Below are positions 5,184 to 62,430 of a stretch of DNA of 64,000 nt, in pieces. Each line of letters starts with the position of its first letter. Position 1 is the stretch's first letter. Under the pieces are notes generated by a model, which saw nothing but the letters and a program-made list of their open reading frames with translations, did not search any database and was not told the DNA's origin. The stretch is from Papaver somniferum. Taxonomy: Eukaryota > Streptophyta > Magnoliopsida > Ranunculales > Papaveraceae. Location of the stretch: assembly GCF_003573695.1 (NCBI RefSeq), contig NC_039364.1:234787656-234851655 (forward strand), read 5' to 3'. The translations under genes were made by a program, and so were the position numbers.

Positions 5184-5190
5184 CACCCTC

Positions 5191-34065: not shown

Positions 34066-34300
34066 CACTACAAGAAAACCTGGCTTAAGCGACCAAAATC
34101 CTAGCAAGATCCCATAATTTTAGTCACTTTAAGGGTTTAAGCATCCAAAGTTGCAACTGCCATAAAGTTTGGCGGCTACAAACCTGTGTCATCTAATATC
34201 TAGCCACGACCGAATGTGTTTGCTCGCTACATCACTCTTTCAAGTCATCTATAGCAGCTTGAAAAGTGCTCAGGTAGCTATTCACTTTGAGGCACCGACT
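34066..34300 (+). repeat. CACTA 1 left terminal and subterminal region
   Basis: TIR CACTACAAGAAAA followed by GGCTTAAGCGACCAAAA and a run of similar short motifs. Near-identical to 54921-55160 of CACTA 2. Confidence 0.85.
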
Positions 34301-35748
34301 CCTAGCAACTAAAAAATGAATCGGTTGGTACAACCTCTCTGAGCAACCAAGTTTAAGCGGCCACCACATGTTCAAAAGAGAAGTCAGTTTTGTAAGTAGG
34401 CATTTGAAACCGATAATGATCTCATTTTAGTTTCTTATTGGTTAGATTAGTGTCATACGGATCATGGTTGTTATCTTAGTTTACTATTAGGGGTGCACAA
34501 TGTCCTGTCGGTCCGGTTTTTAGGCAAAACCATCGACCAAACCGTATACACCTCGGTTTTCGATTTCAAAACTGCCACGGAACTGTTGATGGATCGGTTG
34601 CGTTTGAAACCGATCCTAGTCCGCTTGGTCATTTTCCAGGCTACTACTGTTTTAACTGGTTCCAAATGAGAAAAAAAAACAAACAAAAGAAACCAAAAAA
34701 CTATCCTACAACATGAAATAGATCTCGAAGCTTTACCGAAACCTTGAAAATTTAAAACTATATCGATAATCCCTCCGGTCAAAAAATCTGTGGAACTTGG
34801 TCAATTATGCCGATTAACGCATCAATTCTTATCTCGGTGAAAAATAGAAATCAGCTTGGCCAAGGTGAAATTTTTGGTCTCGGATAAATTAAGTGAACTA
34901 AATGGATATCTGAGTTGACTTAATAGTCAACCATATAAACGCATGGAATCCAAGAAAAATCGAGTAACTATTGAATAAAATTGATTAATAACGGGTGAAA
35001 TTCATTTGGAATTAATAGGCAATAATACAATTATACCCATGGAATCCAAGGAAAATCGTGTGGAGCGAGCGATGTTGGATAAGGTTAATATATAACAAGT
35101 GAAATTGACTAAAGAGTATGGACATTCAGCTAAAATTATCAATAACATGAGAAGCCGATGTAATCCAAGAGAAAATGGGTGAGGTTGACCAACATAAAGT
35201 AAAACTGACAGATAAAAAAAGAAATTAAGTGTACTAAATGAAAATTCGATTTGATTTAATAGTTAACCATATAAACCCAGTGACTCCAGGAGCAATCGAG
35301 TGATGTCGAGTGATATTGAATAAAATTGATTGATAACATGTGAAATTGACTATAGTCAATCGGTGCATACAGTTAAAATGATGAATAATTAGAAGAAAAC
35401 CGATATATCTGATTGAAAATGAATGCGTCAACCAAATTTGGTAAGATTGACCGGTAACAAATAAAATTAAATGAAGTGGATGGAAATTTGATTTGAATTA
35501 ATTGGTAACCTTATAATTAAACCAATGGGAATCTAATAGAAATTGAGTGAGGCCGAGAGAGATTAGATAACATTAATATATAACGGATGAAACCTTTTTC
35601 CGGCGACTTCGAAAAAGAAAGTGGCTCCGAGGTCGAAACATGGCCGGGAGTGGACTACTATAAGTCGGAAACTATGTAAGAACGTACCAATGTACAATAT
35701 GCCAGAACATGATATTACTTCAAGACTTCTTGACGATATGTATACACG

Positions 35749-36360
35749 GTATGTGTATAATATGCCAGAACATGGTTTGTTTAACGTTTCAGGATATATT
35801 TCGAAGGAATCTTATCTATAAATGGATGAATTCATCGTTCGTACGGAGTAGATGCACTTATAGTAGTCCACTCACGGCAAGGTTACGATCTCGGAGCCAA
35901 GGTATGCGTACAATATGCCAGAACATGGTTTATTTAACGTTTCAGGGTATATTCCAAAGGAATCTTACATGTAAATGGATGAATTCATCATTCGTACGAA
36001 GTAGATGGACTTATAGTAGTCTACTCATGGCCAAGTTACGATCTCGGAGCCAAGGTATGCGTACAATATGCCAGAACATGGTTTGTTTAACGTTTCAGGG
36101 TATATTCCGAAGGAATCTTATCTGTAAATAAATGAATTCATCGTTCGTACGAAGTAGATGCACTTATAGTAGTCCACTCACGGCCAAGTTACGATCTCGG
36201 AGCCAAGGTATGCGCACAATATTCCAGAACATGGATTGTTTAACGTTTCAGGGTATATTCCGAAGGAATCTTACCTGTAAATGGATGAATTCATCGTTCG
36301 TACGAAGTAGATGGACTTATAGTAGTCCACTCACGGCCAAGTTACGATCGTATGCGTACA
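35749..36360 (+). repeat. 153-bp tandem repeat within CACTA 1, about 4 copies
   Basis: The phrase GTATGCGTACAATATGCCAG recurs at about 35901, 36054 and 36349 (with a variant at 36207 and a diverged first copy near 35750). The last unit lacks CTCGGAGCCAAG. The deceptive open frames across it come from the repeat. CACTA 2 keeps fewer copies (57000-57260). Confidence 0.85.
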
Positions 36361-36364
36361 ATAT

Positions 36365-36850
36365 GCCAGAACCTTGCCGAAGCTTCTTGGTTCACAGTTT
36401 GTATTCCGTTATACCACATTTGAAGTTCGAATCAACACTGAGCTTCATATTTATCGATTTAGATGATGTATCATGCTAAGTTTGAAGTCAGAACCCTCCC
36501 AGAGCTTCTTGACTCATAGTTTGTATGTTGTTATACCACATTTCAAGTTTGAATCAAAACTAAACTTCATATTTATCGATTTTGATGATGTATCATGCTA
36601 AGTCTTGAAGTCAGAAACCCTCCCGGAGGTTCATGGCTCATAGTTTGTATGTTGTTATACCACATTTGGAGTTCGAATCAACACTAAACTTCATATTTAT
36701 CGATTTCGATAATGTATCATGCTAAGTATGAAGTCAGAAACCCTCCCATAGGTTCTTGGATCATAGTTTGTATGTTGTTATACCACATTTGGAGTTCGAA
36801 TCAACACTGAGCTTCATATTTATCGATTTTGATGATGTATCCAGCTAAGT
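36365..36850 (+). repeat. About 123-bp tandem repeat within CACTA 1, 4 copies
   Basis: Units end TATTTATCGATTT.GATGATGTATC..GCTAAG at about 36480, 36602, 36726 and 36849. The same array is at 57250-57735 in CACTA 2. Confidence 0.85.
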
Positions 36851-37898
36851 TTGAAGTCTGAACCATCATGAATTTCGTGGTGCATCTCTAGTAATCTTAT
36901 AATCTGAGTTTACCAGTGTGAACTAAATCTACTTCATGACCTGTATGACTTGTAAAAATTACTTCATGACTATTCGAAATTCAAACCCGAAACACAAAAA
37001 CACAAAGAGAAAGCACAAAGAAACACACAATTTATCGAATTCATTTTTCGTTTTCCCGATTCATTCTTATATATTTTTTGGATTTTTTTATATCAGAATG
37101 TCGAAAATAATGTTCTAAATTTATTTATATTTTTTTTGGATTTTTTTTCATTTTAAAGGTTGATAATTAAACCGAAAACATGAGTTCGTATTAACACAAA
37201 AGAAACACAAATGCGTCTCAATCCGTATGAGCATCACAAATAAAATCTCAACCGTCAGATTGTTTTCTCAATCCGTATGGCTAGATCCAACGAACTCCGT
37301 CCATCACTTTCATTCACCCACCGAACCCTCCCAACCACTCGAACTCTATCTGTTTTGCTCTATCTTCATCTTCTCTGCTCTTCGTCTCCTCCATAGATCG
37401 ATGACCGGCGGCATTACTTGAGAAAATCTAATTCACTTAACCCATCTTTTACTCGTCATCGCCGTCTCCTCTCCCCCTCTTCACCTGCTTCTTTGAAACT
37501 CATTTTCTCTTCTTCTTTCTTCTTTTTCGTTCTTCTTTTTTGCTCTTCTTCAGTTGAAAATCGAGAGGTCAAATTGAGTTATGGCTTGAAGAAATTTATA
37601 TCGTGAGGATGTATAAAAGAAGCAGGAGTTGGTGTTTCTGCTAACTATGAAGAATAGGATTGAGTCCTGTTATGAATCGAGAACTAGGGTTTTCTCAGTG
37701 AATCGGTAATTGAGTTAGAAATTGAGAAATTAAAGTGGGTTCGGTGAACACATTATGATGAGGAAGAATTAGTGATTGATGTGTGAGTTTTAATGAAGAT
37801 TAGAGAAGCTAAGTTTTAGGTGATTATTATTGTTTTGATTGATGCTGATTTTTTGTTTGAATTAGAGTTTGAATGTGTGTTTGGGTTTTTTTGTGCAG

Positions 37899-37949
37899 AT
37901 ATTGTGGTGGATGATTTTGCGAGTTGCAGGAATCACATTATGGATCTCT
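37899..37949 (+). pseudogene. RBX1: RBX1-like RING-box exon captured in CACTA 1
   Basis: RBX1 is the RING subunit of cullin E3 ubiquitin ligases. The 51-bp exon sits between TTGTGCAG and GTAAGT and reads (D)IVVDDFASCRNHIMDLC, against the conserved DIVVDNCAICRNHIMDLC. One zinc-binding Cys of the CxxC pair is lost (NCAIC to DFASC). The next RBX1 exon is not found. A fragment only, possibly spliced into transcripts from the shared leader. Confidence 0.7.
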
Positions 37950-39130
37950 GTAAGTGGATCTTTGTGATTATTTTTTGCGGTTTCTTGAAATTGGAACTTT
38001 AATTTCCTGTTTTGTGTTTTGGGGCCATATGAAATTGTAATTAGGGTTTTGTTTCTCGTTTAAGTATTAGAATTGAAAGTTATCAAAATCTTGCAGCTGA
38101 ATTTCTTGTTGTGTCAGCTAATTTTTTATAGAATTTGTAACCACTTTCTAGGATTAAGTCAGCTAATTTGTTTTATTTTGTTGTATGTAACCTCTTTCTA
38201 GGATTAATAATTGAATTTGGAGCTTCATTGGATTGAATTTGATTAAGTTATTGCAGTATTTACTTCTAGTTGTATTCACTGGACTTAGGGATTGTATATC
38301 ATTTCTTATGTTTGAACTTATGATTGTTTTGGATGTGTATTGGATTGGTGTAGCCGAATTTTGTGGCTGAAGAGGATGTGGAAACAGTTGAAACTGCTGG
38401 AACACAAACAGTTGAATTCTGTGTAGACATATTTCTAAAATTCATGAATCCAGGAGGACTTACAAGTTGATTTAGGCATACTTAGGGTATATCTCTTGCT
38501 TCCTTTTAAATTTTGAGACTACTTTGATATGATACTGACTGATTATCTTGTTTGCATCTCACTTTTAGGATCTTCGATCTAAACTAGAGGAATTCTTCAA
38601 TGCACAAATGGCTTACTTGTGCGGATAGAATAGAAATCATGGTAACTCAGACTCCAGTCTTCAGTTTTATTTTTCTTCTCTTTTTTATGTTTGTTTGCTT
38701 ACTTTTCTTGAATTGTTGAGCTTACAACAGATGCTCGGTAAGCTTCACAATTTCTTAAACAAAGAGATTCCAGAAAACATGATTGTGAGGATTTCACATG
38801 GCTACATATAGTTCCCAATTCTCAAAGGCTGTGGCTCATGAAAACATGACTGCGAGGCAACGACAATTAAGAAAAAGGAATTTAGGTAACTCACTCTGTC
38901 TCTCTCTTTCTCTTAGTTCTTTATTACTAATTTCAACTTGTAGTTGATTCTTCCTGCCAATCTTACATGCTCAAGAGTTACGACAACAATGCCACTCAGT
39001 CTTAGTTACATAACCACTTCTAGGACAATGATACTGCCAAGGGAGCTAGTGTTTATTTGTGCAATGATGTTGTGCTTATTTCAGTATGGGTGAAAAAGAT
39101 GTGTTTGACCTTTTTACTGTTTTGTTGTAG

Positions 39131-40058
39131 GAAGACTGGTGGAGATGAGGAACGAATGGCAGCCATTGCAGCTTACATGAAGCTTAATTGGCAGGGCCTT
39201 CAGAAGAAGGTTGTCTTTGTTACTGTTATTACAGATCTCAACACCTTCCATCGCACATGGTGAGTTCCTTATTCTTATTAGTGTGAATTAGTACATATGT
39301 TGCTTTCACGTTATCAGATCAATCATTCAAACTTGCCTTTCAAATGAGTGAATCATTTTATCAGAAGAATATTTTAGACCATGCCTTTGATGTACAAAAA
39401 TGGAATCAGTTTATTCATAATACGAACGAACCATAGTTTTCTTGAGGATGATCTGTGAGCTTATACAATCATTCTTTTTTTGTTTCTGGTTCAACACTGG
39501 TGTCAACCAATGCTACTGCCCTTCAGACGAGGTTTCCAAGAGGGCGTTGGTTGATGGCCTAGAGTCTTCCCAGATTCGCGTGTTTGGTTTGCCCGTCAGG
39601 CCCTCGTTTTTTCGGCTGTAAAGAAAACTGCAAGAGCTCTCGGCGAAGCACTATTCAGTGCAGAACTTGGTAAACCAATTGGACAGATCACCATGGAAAG
39701 TCCAGTAAAGGTAATAGGTAATTCACTTGTTCTGTATATCTAATTATGTAGTCAAGTGGGATTGTTTTTTGATAAAATCAATTTTAGATGCTTTTACTGG
39801 AGTCAATAACAGTTTTCTTTGTTCACCACAGATCAGATGATTCGAGACCCAAATGGAGAAATGGATGGGTGCTTGTGACTGCATTGTAACCAAAGTATGG
39901 AGACACATTTCTTCTTATTAGTATTTTCCTGGAAACCCATTGGTTACTTTATCCATCTTTACTTGCATTGTCTTGTTTTTAGTTCTTATGATTATTATTT
40001 TTTGTAGGCTGGACTTGGAACAATTGCGGAGGCCCTGATAAGGGGCCTTCCAATCATG
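39131..40058 (+). pseudogene. MGD: MGDG synthase fragment captured in CACTA 1
   Basis: Monogalactosyldiacylglycerol synthase makes the main galactolipid of plastid membranes. Exon 39131-39259 has WQGLQKKVVFVTVITDLNTF; its first part (KTGGDEERMAAIAAYMKL) is not MGD sequence as I know it and may be another captured piece. Exon from about 39490 has [18 protein letters not shown] and [13 protein letters not shown], then, after a missing segment and a stop, KTARALGEALFSAELGKPIG. Exon about 39836-39895 has FETQMEKWMGACDCIVTK with TGA in place of Gly just before it. Exon from 40012 has AGLGTIAEALIRGLPI, then homology ends. Introns are retained, so it was captured as genomic DNA. Confidence 0.8.
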
Positions 40059-40818
40059 AAGCAATGGCTAGGCAGTTGTATTGCAGGCTCTGGTGTTGTG
40101 TTGGTGCAGTCGGTGTGTCCAAGGGCTAGAAAGGTTTTACTAAAACAAAAGTGTTGTTAGATTTTTAATTTTTTTTGGTGTTGAAGTTCTGTAAAACTGA
40201 TCTTATGTAGTAACAAACAACAGATCTTGTCTTTTTTTTAAGAAATGATGTAAATGATCTATGTGATATCATAAAACTTGATTCAGTTTTTAATTTGGTT
40301 CATAATTTGTTTTAGTATCAATTTTAATTTTAATTTTAATTTTAATTTCAATTTGGGATTATCTAAATCGAAATCGTCCAGATACTTCCGGCACCGGCAA
40401 AAAGTTTGGTAGCTCAAAAATATAAGCAACCAACTTCAGGTATTTCACTTGCTCTATTATTATGGTTGGTCTATCTATGAAGCGATCGGCGTTTCACTTG
40501 CTCTATTATGGTTGGTCTATCTATGAAGTGATCAACGTTTTACTTGCTGTATTTTGGTTGGTCTAGCTTTAAAGCGATCACTATTTTGCTTGCTCTAGGG
40601 AGGTCGGTTTAGCCATGAAGCAATTAAGAAAAAAGACGCTACATGATAGTTGCTTGATTACTAAAGCGATTGCCTAGCTGCTCTAGACTTGTAGAAATCC
40701 CACCTTTAGCAACTCGAGAGCGAGAGCCAAATTAAGTCGCTTTAAGGGTTAGAGCGACTCAATATGGGCTTTTCCAACCAAAAATGCCTGGTCGCTTAAT
40801 CCAACTTTTCTTGTAGTG

Positions 40819-42191
40819 ATTTATACCTATCTCTGGCTTTGGTATTGAAGTCAGGGAGTTGAAAAGGTAGTTTCTCAGTATCCCGTTTTTCTTATAAAAC
40901 CTAAAATAAATGCAGTCCAGTAATCATTTTACTGGACTGCACTTCCGCAACAAAGAAATGCATTCAGTCCATGTAAGTTGCACTGCAACATCAAATGTAA
41001 CCTAGCAACCTAGAAACTCCTTGCACCTCGAATTTGGACATTCATAACCTGAGAATTCACTATCTACAACTCAAACTTACCCAGCCCCCTTAGTTTGATA
41101 TGTGTCAAGAAAATATGTCAAGAAATAAACAATTCAAAGCAGTCAGTCAGTCAGTCCCTTGCAATGAAACATGTTGAGTAAATAACATCACTTATGAGTA
41201 AATAACTAACACTTCAACTGTGGACAAAACCAGAATATGTGTAACGGCTAAGAATGCCTTCAATCAATGGCATCGCGAGAGGTGCTGCTGAAATTGGAAA
41301 CAGAATCTCATGTTTCAAGTATGAGTTCAAAAAACTTGCAAGAATGCCTTCACTATGGGTGTATCACGAAGTCCGAAATTCTTAAAAAGGATGCATACTC
41401 TTTGCAAACCCCAGTGTATTTCACTATACTGCAGATTTGTGATCCATCTCTTGGCATTAAAACCCTATTTTTGCACTTGGTCCAAATTCAAATTAAAGTA
41501 AACTACCAATACTCAGTGATCAAATTTTTATTTTCGGCAAGAAAAAGTATATAATTTTTTGCTACATCTTGGGCATCCCAAATAATACCATCCGTGGTAA
41601 CAAAACACCACCTTTTAAGTATAGCCTTGCACACAGATAGTTATAGATTAATTACTTAATTTAATCAAACCATGAAAGGGAACAATTATTCACAAAATGA
41701 TACTTTTAATATCACCAATTTAGGTGCAGCGGTTTGCTTTGTGCACAACAACTGTGAATGAAGAAGACTTATAAATGCTACAAACCGTAAATCACGTCTG
41801 GTTGTAACTGATAAACCTTCACCTACAAAGATAAATCAAACTTTTCCGTGTATTCATTGTTTTGATGTTCTTTTATACAGTTGAGTAAACAAAAGAGACT
41901 GATGGAGATTGTATACAAAAGAGTAAACAAAAGAGACTGATGGAGACACACACACAGTTGATGTCACTATACATGATATCAGAACTATGAAAACATCATA
42001 GGTGCCTAATAAGAGTGGTGAATAAATCAAAATTACTGTATCATTTCTGACAAATTGTTCAACGAAATCAGATTCTGGTCATTCCTTTGGAGAGGTGTAA
42101 ATATTGGCAAAAAATTTAGAGAAGGAGACAGAGAGCGTTCCAAAGCTGTTAAGCACATGCCCAGCAAGAATACGAAGAATCATTTCCAGAG
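40819..42191. other. Intergenic between CACTA 1 and Copia 3, no gene
   Basis: Contains microsatellite-like CAGTCAGTCAGTCAG near 41140. The open frame at 41267-41554 has no motif and poor codon composition. Confidence 0.4.
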
Positions 42192-42449
42192 AGATAGAAC
42201 TCCTAGGTTAAAGGGTTAACTACTAGGTTTCAACTAAAGAGAAGAGAGACAAGATGACGAGGTTAAACAAGATAGTTTCAATTGATTTTTAGATACACAG
42301 AATATACAAAGACTCAATGCATATATATGCATAACTAACTTGAGGGTTAAGATACTATCTTTCCCAAATAAACACAATTCCCTAATATACAAAGACTTCC
42401 AAATATACAGGTTGAGTTAACTTGAGGGTTAAGTCACGTTGTGTTAACA
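42192..42449 (-). repeat. 3' LTR of Copia 3
   Basis: 258 bp, one mismatch to the other LTR. It contributes the TAA stop of the pol frame (TGTTAA at its start). Confidence 0.92.
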
Positions 42450-44483
42450 CCCTCCCGCAAGCTTGAACCTTAACAGAGAAAACCGATCACTAGAAAGTGG
42501 TTTGGTGAATATGTCCGCAATTTGATCTTTAGAAGATATAAAACGGACATCAAGAAGCTTGGAAGCTACTTGATCACGAACACAGTGATAATCAATTTCT
42601 ATATGTTTCGTCTGAGCATGAAATATAGGATTAACTGTGAGATAAGTTGCACCAAGATTATCACACCATAATATGGGAGGAGAGCGTGTGGATATACGAA
42701 GTTCAGAAATAAGCGACTGAATCCACATAATTTCGGCAGTAGCAATAGCAAGTCCTCGATATTCAGCTTCAGTACTAGAACGAGAAACAGTCTTTTGTTT
42801 ACGAGCACTCCAAGAAATAAAGTTACCACCCAAATAAACACAATATCCACTTGTAGAACGACGATCATCAAGAGAACCAGCCCAATCAGAATCAATATAT
42901 GCACTGAAAGATAATTGTAGAGAAGGGGATGGCTTAAGGAGTATACCAAACGTACTTGTATGCTTGAGGTAACGAAGAATACGTTTAACTAATCCCCAGT
43001 GAAACTCTGTAGGAGCATGCATAAATTGACAAACCTTATTGACAGCAAACGCAAGATCCGGACGAGTAAAAGTTAAATATTGCGAAGCTCCAACAATGCT
43101 ACGATATTCAGTAGCATCTGTTAATAAAGTGCTACGATCAGAGGAAATATCACCAGAAGTGCTTAGCGGAGTAGTAATTGGTTTAACGCCATCCATTTTT
43201 TCCCGAATAAGAAGATCTTGAGCATAACGATGTTGTGAGAGAAAGAGCCCCGAAGAAGTACGAATTGCCTCAATCCCAAGAAAATAGGATAATTGACCAA
43301 GATCTTTAATTGCAAATTCTTGCTGCAAACGAGAGAGAATAGAGGAAATACCTGTAGTACTAGAGCCAGTGACAATGATATCATCCACATACACCAACAA
43401 ATAGATCACACCATGAGTCCCAGTATGAATAAACAAGGACGAATCACACTTGGAAGTGACAAAACCAATTTGCAACAAAAAATTGCTAAGTCTGTGATAC
43501 CACGCACGAGGAGCCTGTTTAAGTCCATAAAGAGAACGATGTAATTTGCAAACATGTGTAGGAAAACGAGAATCAACATAACCTGGAGGTTGTTTCATAT
43601 AGACTTCCTCTTGAAGTTCCCCATGAAGAAAAGCATTCTGCACATCAAGTTGATGAATGGGCCAATTGGAGGATAAAGCCAATGTAAGAATAATACGTAT
43701 AGTGCATGGTTTAACAACCGGACTAAACGTTTCAGAGTAATCAATTCCTTCTTGTTGATTGTATCCTTTGGCAACTAGGCGAGACTTACGACGTGCAATG
43801 GTACCATCTGGATTACGCTTGATTCGAAAAACCCACTTACAACCAATAACATTCATAGAAGGATGATACGGGACTAAGGACCAAGTACCATTTCGAAGTA
43901 ATGCATTGACCTCATCGTCGGAGGATGTACGCCAGTCAAGGTCCTTATGAGCTTGAGAAATACAAGACGGTTCAAGAACGGAATCACAGATGAGAGCATA
44001 GCGTGAATTTGGTTTGAAAATACCATCTCTAGCTCTTGTAGTCATCGGGTGTGTAACAGGGGGAGCATCTGTTGAAGTTACAGATTGAGCAGCAGAAGAA
44101 GACGGCAACAATAACTGAGAGTTGGACGAATCAGGAACAGGAGACAATGAATCGACAGCATCAGGTGTTGGCGACAGCGGAAGAGTAACAGCAGGTGACG
44201 GCTGAGAATGAGAGACAGAAACCGGCAGCGAATGATTAGAGAAGGATGTTTTCGGCTGAGAAGTAACAGAAGATGACGGCTGATGATTGGAGACAGAAAC
44301 AGACGGCTGATGATTGGAGACAGAGGTTGGCGGCTGATGATTGGAGACAGAGTTTGGCGGCTGATGATTGGAGACAGGATTTGGCGACTGATGATTGGAA
44401 ACAGAATTTGGCGGCTGATGATTGAAGACTGGCGGCTGATGATTGGAGACTGGCGGCTGATGATTAATAGGCACTGATACCAA
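42444..44483 (-). CDS. Copia 3 reverse transcriptase-RNase H frame with proline-rich repeat leader
   Basis: A 679-codon open frame. It has no ATG at its left end: the first codon is TTG inside the PBS. Residues 1 to about 60 are tandem NHQPP-type repeats, then a Ser/Pro-rich linker ending in TRARDGIFKPN (the usual integrase C-terminal tail). RT starts near DLDWRTSSDDEVNALL, with VYVDDIIVTGSS and QLDVQNAFLHGEL. RNase H has YIDSDWAGSLDDRRSTSGYC, SSTEAEYRG and HAQTKHIEIDYH. The catalytic YVDD is intact. It lacks Gag, protease and integrase core, so it is non-autonomous. The open frame and near-identical LTRs indicate recent insertion. Confidence 0.85.
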   Translation of the reverse strand: MVSVPINHQPPVSNHQPPVFNHQPPNSVSNHQSPNPVSNHQPPNSVSNHQPPTSVSNHQPSVSVSNHQPSSSVTSQPKTSFSNHSLPVSVSHSQPSPAVTLPLSPTPDAVDSLSPVPDSSNSQLLLPSSSAAQSVTSTDAPPVTHPMTTRARDGIFKPNSRYALICDSVLEPSCISQAHKDLDWRTSSDDEVNALLRNGTWSLVPYHPSMNVIGCKWVFRIKRNPDGTIARRKSRLVAKGYNQQEGIDYSETFSPVVKPCTIRIILTLALSSNWPIHQLDVQNAFLHGELQEEVYMKQPPGYVDSRFPTHVCKLHRSLYGLKQAPRAWYHRLSNFLLQIGFVTSKCDSSLFIHTGTHGVIYLLVYVDDIIVTGSSTTGISSILSRLQQEFAIKDLGQLSYFLGIEAIRTSSGLFLSQHRYAQDLLIREKMDGVKPITTPLSTSGDISSDRSTLLTDATEYRSIVGASQYLTFTRPDLAFAVNKVCQFMHAPTEFHWGLVKRILRYLKHTSTFGILLKPSPSLQLSFSAYIDSDWAGSLDDRRSTSGYCVYLGGNFISWSARKQKTVSRSSTEAEYRGLAIATAEIMWIQSLISELRISTRSPPILWCDNLGATYLTVNPIFHAQTKHIEIDYHCVRDQVASKLLDVRFISSKDQIADIFTKPLSSDRFSLLRFKLAGGC
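44283..44470 (-). repeat. Coding minisatellite (NHQPP/VSNHQPP units) in Copia 3
   Basis: GGCTGATGATTGGAGAC recurs about eight times on the plus strand, in 18- to 27-base units that all keep the reading frame. It makes the whole variable N-terminus of the pol remnant. Confidence 0.85.
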
Positions 44484-44740
44484 GATAGAACTCCTAGGTT
44501 AAAGGGTTAACTACTAGGTTTCAACTAAAGAGAAGAGAGACAAGATGACGAGGTTAAACAAGATAGTTTCAATTGATTTTTAGATACACAGAATATACAA
44601 AGACTCAATGCATATATATGCATAACTAACTTAAGGGTTAAGATACTATCTTTCCCAAATAAACACAATTCCCTAATATACAAAGACTTCCAAATATACA
44701 GGTTGAGTTAACTTGAGGGTTAAGTCACGTTGTGTTAACA
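44483..44740 (-). repeat. 5' LTR of Copia 3
   Basis: 258 bp, followed directly by the PBS on the minus strand. It lacks a clear TATAAA box; ATATATATGC is the nearest candidate. Confidence 0.92.
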
Positions 44741-44745
44741 CAGAG

Positions 44746-45800: not shown

Positions 45801-45804
45801 CCCT

Positions 45805-46300: not shown

Positions 46301-47012
46301 TGGATCATATGCCGGACCAGTTGTACAGTGTGGGGTCGCTTGTCCCCGGGGTTCTCGTTACATACTGCTCGATTCAATATTTGGGAGAGAATACAACTCC
46401 CATCAAAGGGACAATTCAATATTTAGAAATTTAAGATCAATGAAAGAAAAAGGTAACAAAAAAATGCCAAAGACCTTCCAACTACTCTCGTTTCCAGCTT
46501 CAATATTAAGGAACTTCAGATCAAAGTAAAAAAAAAAAAAAAAAAAAGTAAAAGAACAAAGAACAGAGCTTCAAGTGCTGTCCTTCCCATTTTATACAAC
46601 CATTATCGAACCAGACGTGTAGATGGATGGATGGTTAGAACCATTCTCGTAACCAGACGAAAAGGCTTCATTTTCGTTATGCTATTCTCAATAGTGTTAG
46701 AAAGTTTAACTAGGATATAGGATGGATGGATGGTTAGGAGAAAAAGTAGTTCCAATGTCAGGTAGAAAACAATACAGTTATGCTATTTTAGAACCAGATG
46801 AGGACGACGAGGGTGTTCAGAAGGTATCTTGTCCTCCCAAACAATTCCATTCACATTAAAAGAAACAAATTGGAAGAAGATTGAAAATCAAAAACGATTA
46901 TGAAGAGAAGCATTGATGTTAAATCAGATTTAAGGTTTCATTTCTAACAACCGGAAACAAAGGGTTTCTGGCAGGACGAGAATTCATTCTGATTTGCGGC
47001 GTTTGGATCAGG
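46301..47012. other. Upstream region of the F-box gene
   Basis: Contains a run of about 20 A near 46530 followed by an 80-bp dispersed repeat, and GATGGATGGATGG microsatellite pieces. No gene and no clear TATA box could be assigned. Confidence 0.4.
46549..46632 (-). repeat. Dispersed about 80-bp repeat, copy 1
   Basis: Nearly identical to 53664-53745 (one or two changes). Both copies are preceded on the plus strand by a poly-A run, so read on the minus strand they end in poly-T, as some plant SINEs do. No tRNA-like head could be confirmed. Confidence 0.7.
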
Positions 47013-49896: not shown

Positions 49897-50630
49897 CTAA
49901 CAAAGTTGTGAAATTTTATCATCCCACAGCTCGTAATTAGCTTCATTGAACGAGTATATTCTCCCCGACTTCGGTATTTGAATGTTCTTGTGCGTAAGTA
50001 CAAACTCGCCGTACATTGGGTCCAATGTGAACGCGAAAACTCGATTCCCGATTGAGAGCACAAAGACCACCATGGTTGAATACATGCAGTAACCGGCTGC
50101 CAAAAGAGTGCTGCCAGGTTGACACGCACTCACCACACATCTCTGCTCCTTTTTTCCCAGCTTCAGATCAGACTGATCAGCGTCATCATCGTCATCGTCG
50201 TCATAATCAACAAGGCACGGCTCTTGATCATCAGGACTGTAAATTCCGAATATGGATCCAGTAGTTAAACCGGTGTCAATGATGGAGGAACCATCGATTG
50301 GGTCAAATACAACAGTGTAGTTACCGGAATAAGTTTCTTCGATCGCAATCGGGACATCTTCTTCCTCAGAGGCTATAATACCCGTACGTCCAGTGGATCT
50401 CAGAACACCTGGTTGGCAATGAAGTCAAGCTTTCGCTGGTCATCACCTTGGATGTTGATAAATCCCTGAGAACCGGTGAGGTTGGAGAGTGTAGCTCTCT
50501 GAAGCAGGGAAGTGATTTGTTTGCAAGCAAGGGAAATGCTGGAGAGGACAATGGCAAGCTCGGAATCGATGTTTCCTTGTCATTCTTGATACAACAACCA
50601 GGTAGTCAGGGTTTCAATCTCGAATGCATT
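49897..50630 (-). pseudogene. Intronless FBPase retrocopy (chloroplast type)
   Basis: Fructose-1,6-bisphosphatase fragment read from about 50630: [71 protein letters not shown] and [18 protein letters not shown], then YSFNEANYELWDDKIS, and stop at 49897-49899. It runs without interruption across positions where the neighbouring copy (51.3-52.6 kb) has introns (after ISNE and after DDVSA), so it looks like a processed copy. Damage: a stop after WLLYQE, about 10 bases lost between NQVF and LRSTG, substrate/metal motif DGSSNID changed to DGSSIID, and the C-terminal third missing. The acidic regulatory loop (CLVDYDDDDDDADQ) marks it as chloroplast type. No clear poly-A or TSD seen. Confidence 0.75.
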
Positions 50631-50639
50631 ACTAGTAGT

Positions 50640-51292
50640 TCCCTTTCTGTCCACCTGCTGCTTGTCGTTGACCTATCCCTGATTCACCGATGCTGCTACA
50701 CAGCCACACTGGTATCTTCTAGTCCTTTTGTTGACGTAATGGAAAGACTTAGTAATGCCGCTGCTAGAAAAGAAACCGTCCTGCGGCTGCCGAAGAATCT
50801 GTGAAGATGATGCTGTTGGAGTTGCTCCAGTGCTCATTATCATCATCATTATCTTTCTGTTGGTTTATTTCAAAGAATTTTAAGGCTGGTGGTGAAGATA
50901 GATAATGGTAGGTCCTCTTCTTATCCTCTGTTGTCTTTAACTTTACTGAATGAATGGACACAGTTGATCCCGCTTATGATTAGTAAAATCAATGCACAAA
51001 TATACCGGTTTGTGATTTGCCTATAAGATTAACACAAATGCAGGATATTTCTGGATTTATCTCTGGAAATGTGTGGATCTGTTGGGTAACGGATCATAGT
51101 ATATTATTAATTTTGATACCAATTACAAAACAAAACATGTCATACATGCGAAAATGGGAGAACAGAAAAAAAAAAAAAAGAAAAAAAGAAATCTCGAAAA
51201 TGAATTTTCTAATGAACATATCATTTTCTTGAATTCGTCACTAAAACTGATAAATTATGATGCCGTCAGCGATGATTCTATCATGTCTATGA
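50640..51292. other. Between the two FBPase copies, no gene
   Basis: 50640-50870 may hold the decayed transit-peptide region of the retrocopy. The rest is AT-rich with an A-rich run near 51170. Confidence 0.4.
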
Positions 51293-52552
51293 TCATTCAG
51301 CAGCCAAGTACTTCTCCAATTTATCCACCTCGTCCACGCTTCCAATGTACAGAGGAACACGCTGATGAATCTGCAAGAAACATGTAGGCGTAATTCGGTG
51401 AAAACGAAATAAAAAGTAATTCATGAACACATGGAGGTAGAATTACATGTCTCAGTAGTATGGATGCACTCACCTCTGTTGGTTGGATATCAAGAACTCT
51501 CTGGTGGCCGTCAGAACCTTTACCTCCAGCTTGTTCAGCCAAGTAGCTCATAGGAGCACACTTGTACAAGAGCCTGAGCTTCCCATTCTTGCTCATACTA
51601 TCTCTTGGGTAACCGTATATCCCTCCGTAAAGCAATGTCCTATGGAAATCACCTACAAGACTACCAATGTAACGTGCTGAATATGGCTTTGGATCCGGGA
51701 TTTTGAGATCATCAATGTACTTCTTCAGCTTGTCGTCCCACATTTGGTAGTTGCCTTCGTTGAAATAGTAGATCTTTCTTGATTTGGGGATCTGCACTTT
51801 CTCTTGAGTCAACACAAACTCACCATACATGGAATCCAACGTGAAGGAGTAGACACCTTTCCCGACGGACAACACAAAAATCACGGAGATCGAGTACATG
51901 CAGTATCCTGCGGCCAACAGGTTGGTCCCTGGTTGGCATACGCTCACTATGCACTTTTGCTTCTCTTGGTCCAACTGCATTGTTTGGATATACAGAACTT
52001 TTGGTTAGCTATGAAAACTAGGAATGTCAGATTTCTAAAAGAACGTGTTTGCATATACGTACAGCGGATACATCATCTCCAAAATCAGCAAGACATTCGT
52101 CGTTAGGATGGTAGATACCAAAGATGGATCCAGTTGATACAGCAGCGTCGATGTTGGATGAGCCGTCTAGGGGATCAAATACGACAATGTAGTTCCCAGA
52201 GTAACTCTCTTCCACTGCAACAGGTACATCTTCTTCCTCTGAAGCTATAATCCCTGTTCTTCCACTTGATCTCAAGCAGCTTGAGAACACCTAAACCACA
52301 TTCATGCATCTATGTAATAAATTATACATGCTACATGGCAATAAAAATGCTATGCCAATTAAGGAATTGGATTTCTAATGGTGTGGTAAAATTACTTGAG
52401 TGTTACCAAAACTAATTTATACAAAATTTCACAATGGATTCATTCAGTTTAGTAGATACCTCATTGGAGATAACTTCGAGCTTCTTCTGGTCTTCGCCTT
52501 GAATGTTAACGGCACCTTGACCTCCAATCTTGGCTGAAGTAGTGCATGACAT
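51293..52552 (-). CDS. Chloroplast-type FBPase, N-terminally truncated but open across four exons
   Basis: Exons 52552-52460, 52290-52063, 51974-51474 and 51370-51293 join in phase with GT/AG borders, giving 299 residues. FBPase converts fructose-1,6-bisphosphate to fructose-6-phosphate (Calvin cycle). Seen: [20 protein letters not shown], metal/substrate motif [10 protein letters not shown], the redox loop with three Cys ([20 protein letters not shown]), [32 protein letters not shown], and end [15 protein letters not shown]. The first ATG gives [11 protein letters not shown] before the conserved [10 protein letters not shown]. The usual transit peptide and about 100 following residues (including TLTTWLL) are missing. 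A LINE fragment lies just upstream. A full catalytic core is not expected without the N-terminal helices, so it may be a dying gene; the open frame is notable. Confidence 0.7.
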
Positions 52553-53663: not shown

Positions 53664-53745
53664 TAAAAGAACAAAGAACAGAGCTTCAAGTGCTGTCCTT
53701 CCCATTTTATACAACCGTTATCGAACCAGACGTGTAGATGTAATA
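53664..53745 (-). repeat. Dispersed about 80-bp repeat, copy 2
   Basis: Matches 46549-46632 and is likewise preceded by poly-A on the plus strand. A GA microsatellite (GAGAGAGAGAGAG) follows at 53767. Confidence 0.7.
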
Positions 53746-54057
53746 TACCAGAATCCAAAAAAAAAAAGAGAGAGAGAGAGAGGAAGATGTAAACTGAATA
53801 CAAACTCATTGAATCTAAAATTCTATGTATTTTTTTCAAAAAGGGAATTACTGATTCTCATATCAGAGACTGTCCCCTCCCTATATGGTTTGCTACAAAT
53901 CAAATCAAACCATTATATCATTGTGGAATATGGATACTGCAAACAGCAGAAAAAGAAAAGAAAAAGACTATATTTCTCCACAAAATCTGTGTACCTGGGA
54001 GATATCACGGTTTAATATCTCTGCCTTGGTGTGAAAACAAAAACATGCACACTATCT

Positions 54058-54448
54058 CTACTTTGAGGCATCAAATTGTCCAAACTTGTGTTTTTCTTCG
54101 TGCAACTGCTTGATCACATCATCAAGCTCTGGAAATGCCGATACAAGAAGCATCTCAAGAAGGTTGTAAACTAACTGCTTTAAACAAACAGAAGACTGCA
54201 CCAAAAACAGCCATAAAAAAAGACATAAGGAACTGTAAAATGATCTTAAAAGAATGAAAACAAGACTTAAGACACAGATTTGAGGTCTTTTTATAATGTT
54301 GTATATATAAGGGGTCCATGCCTCCATCTTAGAAATCAAATTTTCTGTGCTTATATGACAGTTACCTGAGAAAAGAAATATAGATCCTTCACAAAATTTT
54401 CGTACTCCTTGCGGCCAAAAAGACTTACTACAGTTGCTGGTGCTTTAT
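54058..54448 (-). CDS. Last two exons of an unidentified gene
   Basis: Exon 54366-54448 (DKAPATVVSLFGRKEYENFV, KDLYFFSQ) and exon 54058-54195 (SSVCLKQLVYNLLEMLLVSA, FPELDDVIKQLHEEKHKFGQ, FDASK-stop) join in phase with clean GT/AG sites. The composition (amphipathic helices, a charged C-terminal tail) and lack of defects look like a real protein C-terminus. I do not recognise the family. Earlier exons are missing: Copia 4 begins at about 54591, so the gene is either truncated by that insertion or continues beyond it. Confidence 0.5.
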
Positions 54449-57400
54449 CTGCAAAATGACGACAGATTGGAATAGGATTAATTGAAAAAAGAGAGGACAA
54501 AAGATGCTCGAAGACTGGAAATGAGTGTTATCATACTGAAACTCCAAAGAAATGACAATAACATAACCAAATATATGATTGTGTACAATTTGTTAAAAAT
54601 GTAAACTTGATTTAGATTAATCAAAAATATTCTATAAGACTTAATTAGTAAGAAAATGTAAAAAAAAATGTGACAATGGAGGAATCTGGAACAAGTATTA
54701 GATTAGAGAAATCTAGAGTCAAAGTCAGCAACTAGATGTAAAAGAAATGTAAAAAAACGAGTGTTTTTTAGTGTAGGCCATACACTAGAGAGGTAGGGAA
54801 GGATCTAGACCTTATAGAAGTCGGTCAATCAATACCTATAAATAGGCATCAGTTGTACCCATTTAAGTTGTAAGTGGGACAAAACACCAAGTGAGGTATA
54901 GGTGTAAGATTGAGGGTCGACACTACAAGAAAACATGGCTTAAGCGACCAAAATCCCAGCGAGAGCCCATAATTTTAGTCACTTTAAGGGTTTAAGCATC
55001 CAAAATTGCAACTGCCATAAAGTTTGGCGGCTACAAACCTATGTCATCTAATATCTAGCCACGACTGAATGTGTTTGCTCGCTACATCACTCTTTCAAGT
55101 CATCTATAGCAGCTTGAAAAGTGCTCAGGTAGCTATTCACTTTGAGGCACCGACTCCTAGCAACTAAAAAATGAATCGGTTGGTACAACCTCTCTCTGAG
55201 CAACCAAGTTTAAGCGGCCACCACATGTTCAAAAGAGAAGTCAGTTTTCGAAGTAGGCATTTGAAACCGATAATGATCTCATTTTAGTTTCTTATTGGTT
55301 ATATTAGTGTCATACGGATCATGGTTGTTATCTTAGTTTACTATTAGGGGTGCACAATGGCATGTCGGTATGGTTTTTAGGCAAAACCACTGACCAAACC
55401 GTATACACTCGGTTTTCGATTTCAAAACTACCACTGAACTGTTGATGGATCGATTGCGTTTGAAACCAATCCCAGTCCGCTCGGTCATTTTCTGGCTACT
55501 ACTGTATTAACGGGTCCAAATAAGAAAAAACAAACAAACAAAAGAAACCAAAAAACTATCCTACAACATGAAATAGATCTCCGAGCTTTACCGAAACCTT
55601 GAAAATTTAAAATTATATCGATAATTCCTTCGGTCAAAAAATCTGTGGAACTTGGTCAATTATGCCGATTAACGCATCAGTTCTCATCTCGGTGAAAAAT
55701 AAAAATCAACTTGGCCAAGGTGAAATTTTTGGTCTCGGATAAATTAAGTGAACTAAATGGATATCTGAGTTGACTTAATAGTCAACCATATAAACGCATG
55801 GAATCCAAGAAAAATCGAGTAACTATTGAATAAATTTGATTAATAACGGGTGAAATTCGTTTGAAATTAATAGGCAATAATACAACTATACCCATGGAAT
55901 CCAAGGAAAATCGTGTGGAGCGAGCGATGTTGGATAAGGTTAATATATAACAGGTGAAATTGACTAAAGAATATGGACATTCGGCTAAAATTATCAATAA
56001 CATGAGAAGCTGATGTAATACAAGAGAAAGTGGGTGAGGTCGACCGACATAAAGTAAAACTGACAGATAAAAAAAAAATTAAGTGTACTAAATGAAAATT
56101 CGATTTGATTTAATAGTTAACCATATAAACCCATTGACTCCAGGAGCAATCGAGTGATGTCGAGTGATATTAAATAAAATTGATTGATAACATGTGAAAT
56201 TGACTATAGTCAATCGGCGCATACGGTTAAAATGATGAATAATTAGAAGAAAACCGATATATCTGATTGAAAATGAATGCGGCAACTAAATTTGGTAAGA
56301 TTGACCGGTAACAAATAAAATTAAATGAAGTGGATGGAAATTTGATTTGAATGAATCGGTAACCTTATAATTAAACCAATGGGAATCTAAGAGAAATTGA
56401 GTGAGGCCGAGAGAGATTGGATAACATTAATATATAACGGATGAAAATTTTTTCCGACGACTTCGAAAAGAAAGTGGCTCCAAGGTCGAAACTTGGCCGG
56501 GAGTGGAATACTATAAGTCGAAACTATGTAAGAACGTACCAGTGTACAATATGCCAGAACATGATATTGCTTGAAGACTTCTTGACGATATGTATACACG
56601 GTATGCATAACCAACTGTTACCATTAGTATGCATGCCCTTTTTATCTGAGTTCGGGACTTACTGGCGATATATATACACGGTATGCATACTATTTTGATA
56701 TGACTTCGCGAACTTTTAAGAACACGTACGCACACATGTATGCACACTTTTTGGATATGATTTCACAACTTCCAAAGGTACCCATACTCGGTATGCATAC
56801 CTGGTTGAACTGACATAGTTTGGAAGCGTAAGTGCAAAGGCAAAAGTACATGAAGTACCTAAGGTTAAGCATACTTGTTGTGCAAACCTTGACCATGGCT
56901 CTAGTTCATTTTTGCTATATTTCTCACACACACTTCTAAGAAAAATTGCAAGTTCAAGCTTGTCTTGTTTAAACTCAGGAAATATATTCCGAAGGAATCT
57001 TATCTGTAAATGGATGAATTCATCGTTCGTACGAAGTAGATGCACTTATAGTAGTACACTCACGGCAAGGTTACGATCTCGGAGCCAACGTATGCGTACA
57101 ATATGCCAGAACATGGTTTATTTAACGTTTCAGGGTAGATTCCGAAGGAATCTTACATGTGAATGGATGAATTCATCGTTCGTACGAAGTAGATGGACTT
57201 ATAGTAGTCCACTCACGGCCAGGTTACGATCGTATGCGTACAATATGCCAGAACCTTGCCGAAGCTTCAAGGTTCACAGTTTGTATTCCGTTATACCACA
57301 ATTTAAGTTCGAATCAATACTGAGCTTCATATTTATCGATTTAGATGATGTATCATTATAAGTTTGAAGTCAGAACCCTCCCAGAGCTTCTTGGCTCATA

Positions 57401-58842
57401 GTTTGTATGTTGTTATACCACATATGAAGTTTGAATCAAAACTGAACTTCATATTTATCGATTTCGATGATGTATCATGCTAAGTTTTAATTTAGAAACC
57501 CTCCCTGAGGTTCTTGGCTCATAGTTTGTATGTTGTTATACCACATTTGGAGTTCGAATCAACACTAAGCTTCATATTTATCGATTTCGATGATATATTA
57601 TGCTAAGTTTGAAGTCATAAACCCTCCCATAGGTTCTTGGATCATAGTTTGTATGTTGTTATACCACATTTGGAGTTCGAATCAACACTGAGCTTCATAT
57701 TTATCGATTTTGATGATGTATCCAACTAAGTTTGAGGTCTGAACCATCATGAATTTCGTGGTCCATCTCTAGTAATCTTATAACCTGAGTTTACCAGTGT
57801 GAACTAAACCTACTTCATGACCTATATGACTTGTAAAAATTACTTCATGACTAGTCGATATTCAAACCCGAAGCACAAAGAGAAAGCACAAAAACACAAA
57901 GAGAAAGCACAAAGAAACCCACCAATTATCGAATTCATTTTTCATTTTCCCGATTCATTCTTATACATTTTTTAGATTTTTTTATATCAGAATGTCGAAA
58001 ACAATGTTCTAAATTTATTTATATTTTTTTGGATTTTTTTTCATGTTAAAGGTTGATAATTAAACCGAAAACATGAGTTCGTATTAACAAAAAAGAAACA
58101 CAAATGCGTCTCAATCCGTATGAGCATCACAAATAAAATCTCAACCGTCAGATTCTTTTCTCAATCCGTATGGATGGATCCAACGAACTCCGTCCATCAC
58201 TTTCATTCACCCACCAAACCCTCCCAACCACTCGAACTCTATCTGTTTTGCTCTATCTTCATCTTCTCTGCTCTTCGTCTCCTCCATAGATCCATGACCG
58301 GCGCCATTACTTGGGAAAATCTAATTCACTCAACGCATCTTTTACTCGTCATCGCCGTCTCCTCTCCCCCTCTTCACCTGCTTATTTGAAACTCATTTTC
58401 TCTCCTTATTCTCTCTTCTTCTTTCTTCTTTTTCGTTCTTCTTTTCTGCTCTTCTTCAGTTGAAAATCGAGAGGTCATATTGAGGTATGGCTTGAAGAAA
58501 TTTATATCGTGAGGATGTATAAAAGAAGAAGGAGTTGGTGTTTCTGATAATTATGAAGAATAGGATTGAGTCCTGTTATGAATCGAGAACTAGGGTTTCC
58601 TCGGTGAATCCGTAATGGAGTTAGAAATTGAGAAATTAAAGTGGGTTTGGTGAACACAGTATGATGAGGAATATTTAGTGATTGATGTGTGAGTTTTAAT
58701 GAAGATTAGAGAATCTAGGGTTTCTGTTCTTTCCCAATATAGATATTAGGGTTCTTGGATGTAATTGAATCAAGTGACTGAAACTGAAATTGAGGTTTTA
58801 GGGGAAAGATTAGAGATGGGAATGTTTGATTTGAAAACTTTG

Positions 58843-58999
58843 AGGTCGTGGTGGTGGTAGAGGCAGAGGAGTCAGCAAAGAAGGAGGTTGTGGTGGTGGT
58901 GGAATGAAAGGTGGTAGTAAAGTGATTGAGTACAGAGTCTAGAATCCTTTTAGATCAAAGCTTGCTGCTGCTGTACTTGGTGGTGTTGACAATTTTTGG
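58843..58999 (+). pseudogene. FIB: Fibrillarin fragment captured in CACTA 2
   Basis: Fibrillarin is the box C/D snoRNP 2'-O-methyltransferase of the nucleolus. One frame reads a GAR-like stretch (GRGGGRGRG), then GGGGMKGGSKVI, then directly EYRV-stop-NPFRSKLAAAVLGGVDN, matching the two sides of the usual KGGSKVIV..and EYRVWNPFRSKLAAAxLGGV motifs with the about 45 residues between them missing and the Trp codon changed to TAG. The methyltransferase core is absent. Confidence 0.75.
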
Positions 59000-59263
59000 A
59001 TTTTAAGTATTATTTGTGTATAATGTTTGGGATTTCACTTTGTGTTTTTACTTTTTTTTTTCTCTGTCATTGTTTTAACATAATGGTGTTTGATTTTATC
59101 ATCTCTACAAGGTAGTGAATTTTCTTTATGGTTTTGTACTTGTCCAGTTTAGCGGTAATATATTACATTTGTGATGCTAAGAAGCTCTGTGTAATTTTAT
59201 CGTACTAGTATCACAATTCATCATATGCTTGATAATAATAAGAAGCATGTTTTCCTCCTATAG

Positions 59264-60826
59264 GAAGATGTTGGAACTTATGTCCAAGCTGGGATTTGCG
59301 GCTTACCGCTTTTCTGTTTCATGGTCTCGTATTTTCCCTGGTAATTCATCTGCTACCTTGTCGAATTTAAATGTTTCTTACTGTTGTTTTGTGAGAGTTG
59401 TGAAGTAAAAGAATATCACTCTCTTTTGTTTCTTCATTTATTTCAACCGTCAACTCTTTATGGAACTAAATTTAGGTCTCTTTCTGTTAGCGCAGATGGT
59501 TTGGGAACAAAGGTCAATGAGGAAGGAGTTGCCTACTACAACAATCTCATTAATGCTCTGCTTGATAAAGGTCCTTGTTTATTACTTGGCTGTCCCTTCC
59601 ATTGATGATTAAACTGCTTAGTTGAATATCGTTTGTTCTGCAGGTTTGCAGCCATACTTGACATTATATCATTGGGATCTACCGAACCATCTTCAAGAGT
59701 CAGTGAGAGGATGGTTATCCGACAAAATTGTGTAAGTTTGATAATAAAATCTTATTTCTGGTTTGCATATCCCATTCTGTGTAGCTTATGAACTAATGAG
59801 TGGATGCCATACTTTATTTGGGAATCATGCAGAAAATGTTTTGCAATATATGCTGAGACTTGCTTTGCGAGTTTCGGGGACCGAGTAAAACATTGGATCA
59901 CATTAAATGAACCTCTTCAAACTTCGGTAAATGGACATGATATCGGGATATTTTCTCCTGGAAGAAGTGAAAATTCTTCTACTGAACCATATCTGACTGC
60001 ACATTATCAACTTCTGGCTCATGCAGCACCTGTTTCCATATACAAGAAAAAGTTTCAGGTGATTTCTTCGATCTGTGCTTTGATGCTTTTACATTTCCTG
60101 ATAATTGTCTAAAATTTTAAATTTATTTATTTGTGTGGCTCTTATGAAAAATGAAACAAAAAAAAAAGAAAAACATTCTCTCATATACGGAAAGTTTGAT
60201 AATTAATATACGGATAGACTTCCATTTTCTCTTATAGTAAGCTACAAACACGGACGATTTATGTGCAAATGATAAGAAAAAAAAACGGTTTGTTTACAAT
60301 AGCAGTTAGATGCTCTGCAGTGCCGAAAAAATATGGTGAAAACAACCTCATCATTCAACTGACACGGGATTTATATTCTTTAATACATATGCTTATAAGA
60401 GTACTAAATAGTCTCAATGTACTGTTGCTATCGTCCCTATTAACAGTTCCCATCAATTTCACCATTTTTCATGTTCGTAATTTTGTATCTCTTGTAGGCT
60501 CAGCAGGGTGGTGAAATAGGAATAGTAGTTGATTGTGAATGGGCAGAGCCTTTTTCGGATAAGATGGAGGATAAAATTGCTGCTTCAAGGAGTCTTGATT
60601 TTCATTTTGGGTGGTATTTGGATCCAATATATTTTGGAGACTATCCTAAGACCATGCGTGAGAAACTTGGAGATCGGCTTCCAAAATTCTCAGATGAAGA
60701 TAGAGAGTTGTTAAGGAACTCGGTAGACTTTCTGGGTATAAATCACTATACAACAAGATTAATTGCTCATGCGACAACAAGCCCTGGATATGGGCATCAT
60801 TATCATGATCAACAAATGGAACAAAT
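59264..60826 (+). pseudogene. GH1 beta-glucosidase fragment (BGLU42-like) captured in CACTA 2
   Basis: Five exons with introns kept: 59264-59341 (ELMSKLGFAAYRFSVSWSRI; one extra G shifts the frame at its start), 59492-59570 (NEEGVAYYNNLINALLDKG), about 59644-59731 (LQPYLTLYHWDLP), 59833-60059 (HWITLNEP, containing the acid/base Glu), and about 60497-60826 (GEIGIVVDCEWAEPFSDK, GWYLDPIYFGDYP, SVDFLGINHYTTR). A short GGEAIGEK piece follows near 60900. The catalytic-nucleophile exon (TENG) and N-terminus are missing. GH1 enzymes hydrolyse beta-glucosides. Captured as genomic DNA. Confidence 0.82.
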
Positions 60827-62430
60827 TGGTACAACACTTACTTAAAGGTTTATGTTTTTGAATTTTGTATAAGCTTATGATCAGTTCAATATCCTGGGGG
60901 TGAGGCTATTGGCGAGAAGGTACTGAATCTACTGATAATATCCAGCTAGTTTTCTCTCTAACACATGCATTCAGCTTTTATTTGAGTTTAATTCTGTTGA
61001 AAATGTCATTTATGCCAGGCTGCATAAAATGTCATTTATGCCATTATACCAGTTGTGATGGTAGCTGCTCTATATTTTCTTGATCACAGTATTGCTTCTC
61101 AAATAGCACAGCAGAAGGAATTCAATGGGTCTTCTATTGCAGGGGAAGATTTGTTGTTGATGTTCTGTTCATGGTACTTCTGGTGATGAAGAAATGGATG
61201 ACATGATGGGTGATGGTTGTGTATGTTGTAGGCTTTTGGTTTGAGGTTATTGCACTGAATTGCTGAGAGCTTCGCACTGGTGGAATGGATGAATAAGTTG
61301 CATATAGAGACTCACAACAAGAGCAGATGATGGCGTGCTGAGAAGCTGAGGATTGTTGGTGCTGATTCTGCAGTAGCTAGGATTGTTGGGTATCCTTCTA
61401 CTTTTGCAGCCTAAACTTTGACATCAAAACCATATCTAGAAAATATGGTATCATGTCGCAAAAGTATGAATCTGAATGAATCTGAGTGAGTTTCAGAAGA
61501 AGCATGATGTGGCCTTCAAAGCTTTAAGTATTTGGTAAGAAGAAGCATGATGTAGCCTTCAAACTTAAAGTATGTTGAAGAGTTTGTAATTTGTTTTTTT
61601 TTAAAGAAATGAGATTGTATTTTTATTTAATTTTTGTAAAATGAGATTGTAATTTTTCCTGATTAACAATTGATGTTTTAAATTGAATTTAATGATATTA
61701 AATTAAATTAATTTTGCTTTGCATTTAGTTTGTTGTGTATTTTCTTTTTGTTTAATTATGATTTCATTTTTTATTCAGCCGAGTCAAAATTGGTCGGAAG
61801 CCTTTAAATGAACCGGAACATTATGTGTAATGAGCAACTAATTTTTGACAAACTCAAAGGTTATAGCAACTAATTTCAGACAAGCTGAAAGTTTGCACCG
61901 ACTAAAATCTTGTACATCCAATACCCTTGAGCAACTTATTATTGGTCAGTTAAGTTGCTCTAAACCTTTGTCAACGTAACATATTACTCGCTAAGATGGT
62001 TGAAATAAATTTAGGGCAACTCACTCTAGGATAATTGGAATAAACTGAAAGCAAGCATATTTGTTAATCGTTGATGGTAGTTGAAACATTCTTAGAGCGA
62101 GTGCCTAGCTGCTCTAGACCTATAGAGATCCCACCTTTTGCAACTCAAGAGCGAGAGCCAAATTAAGTCTCTCTAAGGGTTAGTGCGACTTAATATGGGC
62201 TTTTGCAACCAAAATTGCCCGGTTGCTTAATCCAGTTTTTCTTGTAGTTCGAGTCTTATAAACAAAAGTGAATTTGTATGGATCAGTGTTTGAGAGCAAT
62301 AGAATTTTCATTTCCATAAACCACAATGAGTGTTTGTGAGCCTATTTTCAAATCTTAGCCAAACCCATTTAGCCATTAACCCCAAAACCATTTCCAACAA
62401 AGTGGTAGGTATCAGAGCCATAAGATCCTA

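Follow-up and report, generated by a model that had tools for sequence, protein, structure and literature searches.

Two CACTA-type elements of opium poppy share a leader, carry different host gene pieces and have unequally diverged ends

Structure of the two elements

We analyzed a 64,000-nucleotide stretch of Papaver somniferum DNA (contig NC_039364.1, positions 234,787,656 to 234,851,655 of the forward strand), referred to as the window herein and numbered from its first base. Two transposable elements of the CACTA type, elements 1 and 2, lie within it in the same orientation, 14.1 kb apart. Each has a 5′ module (the leader), an interior with pieces of host genes (the cargo) and a 3′ module (the tail), flanked by a target-site duplication (TSD):

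34063..34065: left copy of the TSD ATT of element 1; right copy at 40819-40821
34066..40818, plus strand: element 1, a non-autonomous CACTA element of 6753 bp (from its ends, blastn and no transposase domain)
34066..37817, plus strand: leader of element 1 (blastn to element 2)
40643..40818, plus strand: tail of element 1, including the terminal inverted repeat
54918..54920: left copy of the TSD CGA of element 2; right copy at 62250-62252
54921..62249, plus strand: element 2, a non-autonomous CACTA element of 7329 bp with a changed 3′ terminal base (from its ends and blastn)
54921..58723, plus strand: leader of element 2 (blastn to element 1)
62074..62249, plus strand: tail of element 2 (blastn and alignment)

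The 13-mer CACTACAAGAAAA occurs exactly at 34066 and 54921 on the plus strand and reversed at 40806-40818; by chance, 0.0045 copies would be expected on both strands of the window from its base composition. At the 3′ end of element 2, 12 of the 13 bases are kept and the terminal base is T, not G. Hence, where a preliminary description of this DNA had given both elements CACTA ends and 3-bp TSDs, the TSDs stand for both (ATT/ATT and CGA/CGA) and the ends are exact at three of four sites. The terminal inverted repeats agree at 27/30 bp in element 1 and 24/30 bp in element 2. No transposase domain was found by Pfam at E ≤ 0.1 in any of the 12 frame translations (six per element, stops read as X). 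Compared with the rest of the window, the elements gave no match at E ≤ 1e-3, and the family numbers two copies within it. A 36-base pattern of the element end had no exact match in viral contigs, in a search that may have omitted records near the window's genome.

The leaders match by blastn in two blocks, bases 1-1688 of element 1 at 95.6% and bases 2036-3752 at 93.7%, and the common tail of 175 bp is 86.3% identical, which bears out the description of about 3.7 kb shared at the 5′ side and about 0.2 kb at the 3′ side. Just before the tail, an AT-rich stretch gave a local alignment score of 61.5, the highest of 200 shuffles being 58. The spacer between the two leader blocks, 347 bp long in element 1 and 377 bp long in element 2, shows no one-to-one correspondence, and about 0.36 kb of the mid-leader of element 2 has no long match in element 1. 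TRF lists the following tandem repeats in the leaders:

35748..36349, plus strand: 153-bp repeat, element 1, 3.9 copies
36384..36862, plus strand: 123-bp repeat, element 1, 3.9 copies
57274-57743: 123-bp repeat, element 2, 3.8 copies

TRF listed no 153-bp array in element 2, and a separate repeat search shows one 300-nt stretch there. Because the mid-leader repeat region differs between the elements, the leader is common to both but not constant, contrary to its earlier portrayal as constant. Three Pfam matches in or near the tandem-repeat leader of element 1 were taken as repeat artefacts, none of the stretches being significant alone: a methyl-CpG-binding domain (E = 2.4e-4; 21.1 bits, cut-off 21), DUF6668 (E = 1e-4, below cut-off) and zf-C2H2_12 (E = 0.056, below cut-off).

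Divergence of leader and tail

We counted 66 mismatches in 1674 columns of the proximal leader (3.9%), 41 in 839 of the distal leader (4.9%) and 24 in 175 of the tail (13.7%). The tails are thus more diverged than the leaders. The proximal leader differs from the tail at p = 1e-6, and both leader blocks together do so at p = 1.8e-6, at 2.6e-6 without CpG sites and at 0.0012 with transversions only. Across 2364 leader windows, each 175 columns wide, the count never reached 24 mismatches, the maximum being 16; these windows overlap and were taken from the two blocks joined end to end, with the repeat region between them excluded. Because the tail has diverged by 13.7% and the leader by 4-5%, the modules differ in history: either the tails separated before the leaders did, or homogenisation has acted on the leaders.

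If a single ancestor had exchanged its interior only, equal divergence would be expected at both ends. The same prediction follows from independent captures, in which two descendants of a cargo-free ancestor, itself with a single leader and a single tail, acquired different host pieces and exchanged no ends. Such captures would account for unrelated interiors behind a common leader and have a parallel in Tpn1, in which host sequence replaced the interior and the ends were kept (PMC5105172). Set against the observed 4-5% versus 13.7%, we regard them as quite unlikely. More likely than a simple exchange of the interior between constant ends is a shared 5′ module that became linked to differing cargo-plus-3′ modules. 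Of the earlier proposal of repeated capture or cargo exchange by one non-autonomous lineage, the part supported is that CACTA elements lacking a transposase domain carry different multi-gene cargo behind a common leader.

The main rival lets two older elements, each with its own cargo and tail, undergo gene conversion of the leader only, which would make the leader look young. It accounts for the same contrast, and the two sequences are similar, in the same orientation and 14 kb apart. Against it, mismatches are spread fairly evenly along the proximal leader, whose 14 full bins of 120 columns hold 2 to 9 apiece with no obvious old patch, and the two elements do not agree in their repeat region. 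We hold leader homogenisation to be unlikely, though a little less so than independent captures.

Captured host gene pieces

The interiors are unrelated, as the preliminary description stated in assigning different multi-gene cargo to the two elements: blastn at E ≤ 1 returned only three matches, 22, 19 and 16 bp long (E = 0.002, 0.096 and 0.34), and six-frame blastp gave six weak matches, the best at E = 0.048. The cargo comprises the following:

37899..37949, plus strand: RBX1 exon, element 1, with AG before and GT after (DIVVDDFASCRNHIMDL)
38340..38910, plus strand: exon-like stretches of element 1 with no family assigned, read from translations
39132..40154, plus strand: MGDG-synthase chimera, element 1, made up of several exons and interrupted by internal deletions, a frame change and a stop
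58838..59000, plus strand: fibrillarin fragment, element 2, with a stop and an internal deletion
59264..60919, plus strand: beta-glucosidase-42-like (GH1) fragment, element 2, of six exons
61000..61043, plus strand: two 18-bp direct repeats around 8 bp at the 3′ break of the GH1 fragment

The names given to the cargo earlier are borne out. The RBX1 exon matched RBX1 by phmmer against PDB (E = 4e-5), and the MGDG chimera matched Pfam PF06925 (E = 1e-7) and 4wyi (E = 4.5e-43). For fibrillarin, Pfam PF01269 was found at E = 1.1e-4, below the curated cut-off, and a PDB match at E = 5e-7; the internal deletion in this fragment is suggested by comparison with the known protein. The stretches at 38340..38910 had no Pfam match besides Ribosomal_L39, which one of them matched at E = 0.17, below the cut-off, and which we took as chance.

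The GH1 fragment reads through 277 codons without a stop, and all six of its exons have AG before and GT after. Near its start, it apparently has one extra base, as judged against poppy proteins. Its nearest relative is P0001, a full-length predicted protein of 482 aa from Papaver armeniacum, with 95% identity by search; when the two are aligned, 16 of 277 residues differ. P0002 (P. armeniacum) and P0003 (P. somniferum) differ by 37 and 50. The 18-bp repeats at its 3′ break may be the mark of repair-type joining.

All four recognised cargo pieces point in the leader direction, which at n = 4 is not significant. Because the pieces retain their introns, with GT/AG borders, they were captured as DNA.

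Poppy relatives of the MGDG chimera

Protein searches with the MGDG pieces of element 1 were followed for the best 120 of 521 matches, and a second search gave 51, of which 47 were left out of one-by-one alignment. Among the matches listed, five came from poppies: P0121 and P0123 (P. somniferum), P0122 (P. californicum), P0241 (P. atlanticum) and P0269 (P. bracteatum), the last a partial protein. In four of the five (P0121, P0123, P0241 and P0269), 31 residues are absent that are likewise absent from element 1 and are present in P0122 and in the Macleaya protein P0124. Element 1 has a frame change at this joint, where an X was placed in the translation. Following RGLPIM, the sequence ceases to be that of MGDG synthase (KQW.GSCIA...) in element 1 and in P0121, P0123 and P0241, three of the four proteins with the deletion; P0269 ends before this fusion point. 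The fusion on the N-terminal side of element 1 recurs in P0121 and P0241 (two of four).

As a control, the intact P0122 and P0124 were compared with element 1 by tblastn and matched solely within 39183-40058. P0241 started at 39132 and P0121 at 39156, and the 3′ reach extended to 40145 for P0241, 40112 for P0121 and 40154 for P0123. Several features count against a simple picture: P0121 departs from element 1 further on (FYIGEK...), P0123 differs at the N-terminus and includes in its protein sequence a stretch taken for an intron in element 1, P0241 is without five residues of the fusion, and a further MGDG stretch kept in P0121, P0241 and P0269 is missing from element 1.

P. bracteatum and P. 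somniferum are reported to have split 9.7 million years ago (PMC9174169). Because the 31-residue deletion is common to predicted proteins of both, it appears to be at least 9.7 million years old, barring introgression. Likewise, since its junctions are shared with proteins of P. somniferum, P. atlanticum and P. bracteatum, the chimera of element 1 is probably older than the split of several Papaver species. The MGDG cargo therefore does not fit a capture private to this 28-kb stretch, as had been suggested, because the same chimera occurs in predicted proteins of other poppies.

The four proteins with the deletion gave no tblastn match to the leader or to element 2 at E ≤ 1. This bears on another explanation, which the preliminary description had named as its own possible refutation: that the two copies inherited a single ancestral interior and lost different parts of it. 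The recognised pieces of both elements do follow the same leader end in the leader direction, as this explanation would have it. Matching of the four chimera proteins to element 1 only, together with the shortness of the sequence shared by the interiors (22 bp at most), makes it highly improbable.

P0121, P0123 and P0241 carry the name MGDG synthase or probable MGDG synthase, yet lack the 31 residues and have an unrelated C-terminal end, as in the transposon cargo. Some proteins so annotated in opium poppy and P. atlanticum thus share this broken structure and call for caution.

Proposed origin of the elements

Taken together, these findings make it fairly probable that both elements are non-autonomous, of the Pack-CACTA type, and hybrids of a shared 5′ module with different cargo-plus-3′ modules, the cargo being in decay. 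The unequal divergence of leader and tail fits hybrid-element models of Pack-CACTA formation. In the published model, terminal deletions in two neighbouring elements lead to a hybrid that encloses the intervening DNA (PMC13317346; PMC8903248), from which it would follow that the two ends of a hybrid may differ in descent.

In the poppy pair, host gene pieces were taken up as DNA, introns included, and the leader would have been fused to two different modules of cargo plus 3′ end. This fusion could have come about by aberrant joint mobilisation of neighbouring elements, as in the Pack-CACTA model, or by template switching in gap repair following excision. A transposase from elsewhere in the genome would have mobilised both elements in trans. 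At the level of reading frames, at which function was considered, the cargo is most likely decaying baggage.

Several points weigh against the hybrid origin. The two copies at hand do not identify the parents of the hybrids. The divergence contrast would also arise if the leaders of neighbouring elements had undergone gene conversion. The contrast is weaker when the leader is represented by its first 175 bp alone, which hold 7 mismatches (p = 0.002; 0.0016 without CpG sites and 0.02 with transversions only). The subterminal motif AAGCGAC, picked by eye and counted with at most one mismatch, is clearly enriched at the 3′ end of element 1 (9 against 0.94 expected); it is marginal at both 5′ ends (3 against 0.84-0.90, p 0.05-0.06) and shows no enrichment at the 3′ end of element 2 (1 against 0.71, p = 0.52). 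Lastly, the poppy relatives of the MGDG chimera are known as predicted proteins alone.

We tentatively extend the hybrid origin to a two-part cassette family, in which a common 5′ module was repeatedly joined to interchangeable cargo-plus-3′-end modules, some of which, such as the MGDG chimera, would be older than several Papaver species, spread in the genus and annotated as genes. This possibility is a good deal less secure than the hybrid origin of the pair itself. If it is true, cargo passed between elements and was not captured anew each time. A non-autonomous transposon may acquire and shuffle gene pieces either through fresh capture or through the fusion of neighbouring elements, and the element pair bears on this choice. 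The comparison of leader with tail divergence is a simple sequence test that is applicable to any Pack-TYPE family.

Comparison with known gene-capturing CACTA elements

CACTA elements that capture genes, keep their ends and vary in cargo are already well known (Pack-CACTA, Tpn1, Tgm-Express). What the poppy pair adds in interest is the separable histories of the leader and of the cargo plus tail, and an MGDG chimera annotated as genes in several poppies. Among the listed titles and abstract openings on Papaver CACTA elements and opium poppy gene capture, none concerned gene capture by a poppy CACTA element, which is no proof of absence.

Pack-CACTA elements of Arabidopsis, maize and rice resemble the poppy elements in their CACTA ends, TSDs, host coding pieces and missing transposase (PMC8903248, PMC13317346). 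Further likenesses are cargo from multiple loci, which is frequent in maize, local insertions in the same orientation (both PMC8903248) and the proposed formation of hybrids. The poppy pair differs in adding the asymmetric divergence of leader and tail, which bears on the formation of hybrids; its mobility is presumed and its parents are hypothetical.

Tpn1 of Ipomoea nil is likewise a non-autonomous CACTA element in which captured host genes replace the interior and the termini are kept. It has tandem repeats of 122 bp on the 5′ side and 104 bp on the 3′ side, beside the 123 bp of the poppy leader, and a terminal inverted repeat of 28 bp (PMC5105172); we set it beside the poppy elements by description and claim no kinship. 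Tgm-Express1, a soybean CACTA element, contains five host gene fragments that are unrelated to one another, and splicing makes use of their intron borders; chimeric transcripts were shown there, whereas the poppy elements are known from DNA (PMC1947982). Chenopodium CACTA elements are also reported to hold captured fragments (PMC8978399).

Genomic setting

Element 2 is most likely inserted in the 5′ long terminal repeat (LTR) of a copia element. A TATA-like sequence lies to its left, a primer-binding-site-like GGTATCAGAGC stands at 62408 just downstream, and the frame at 62692-63660 reads as a copia reverse transcriptase, named by eye. For this host copia, no clear LTR start was found, nor a second LTR in the window.

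Three further copia-type elements were recognised by eye. The one at 11039-15033 has 126-bp terminal repeats that are 100% identical, a 1262-codon frame and ATCAA at both flanks; it seems to have inserted very recently, and its open frame shows little of gag. A short derivative at 42192-44741 has 259-bp repeats (99.6% identical), and a possible TSD CAGAG; its frame of 684 codons resembles reverse transcriptase, contains a 27-bp repeat array and has no apparent gag or integrase part. At 4649-9836, 535-bp repeats that are 95.7% identical surround minus-strand frames.

Between elements 1 and 2, a 486-codon open frame at 46923-48383 contains an F-box domain (Pfam PF00646, E = 1.7e-6), and the minus strand at 49897-52274 holds two similar fructose-bisphosphatase-like gene pieces, named from translation, one with an acidic run. 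Elsewhere in the window, a two-block duplication pairs 2846-4198 with 23987-25814 at 81% and 88% identity.

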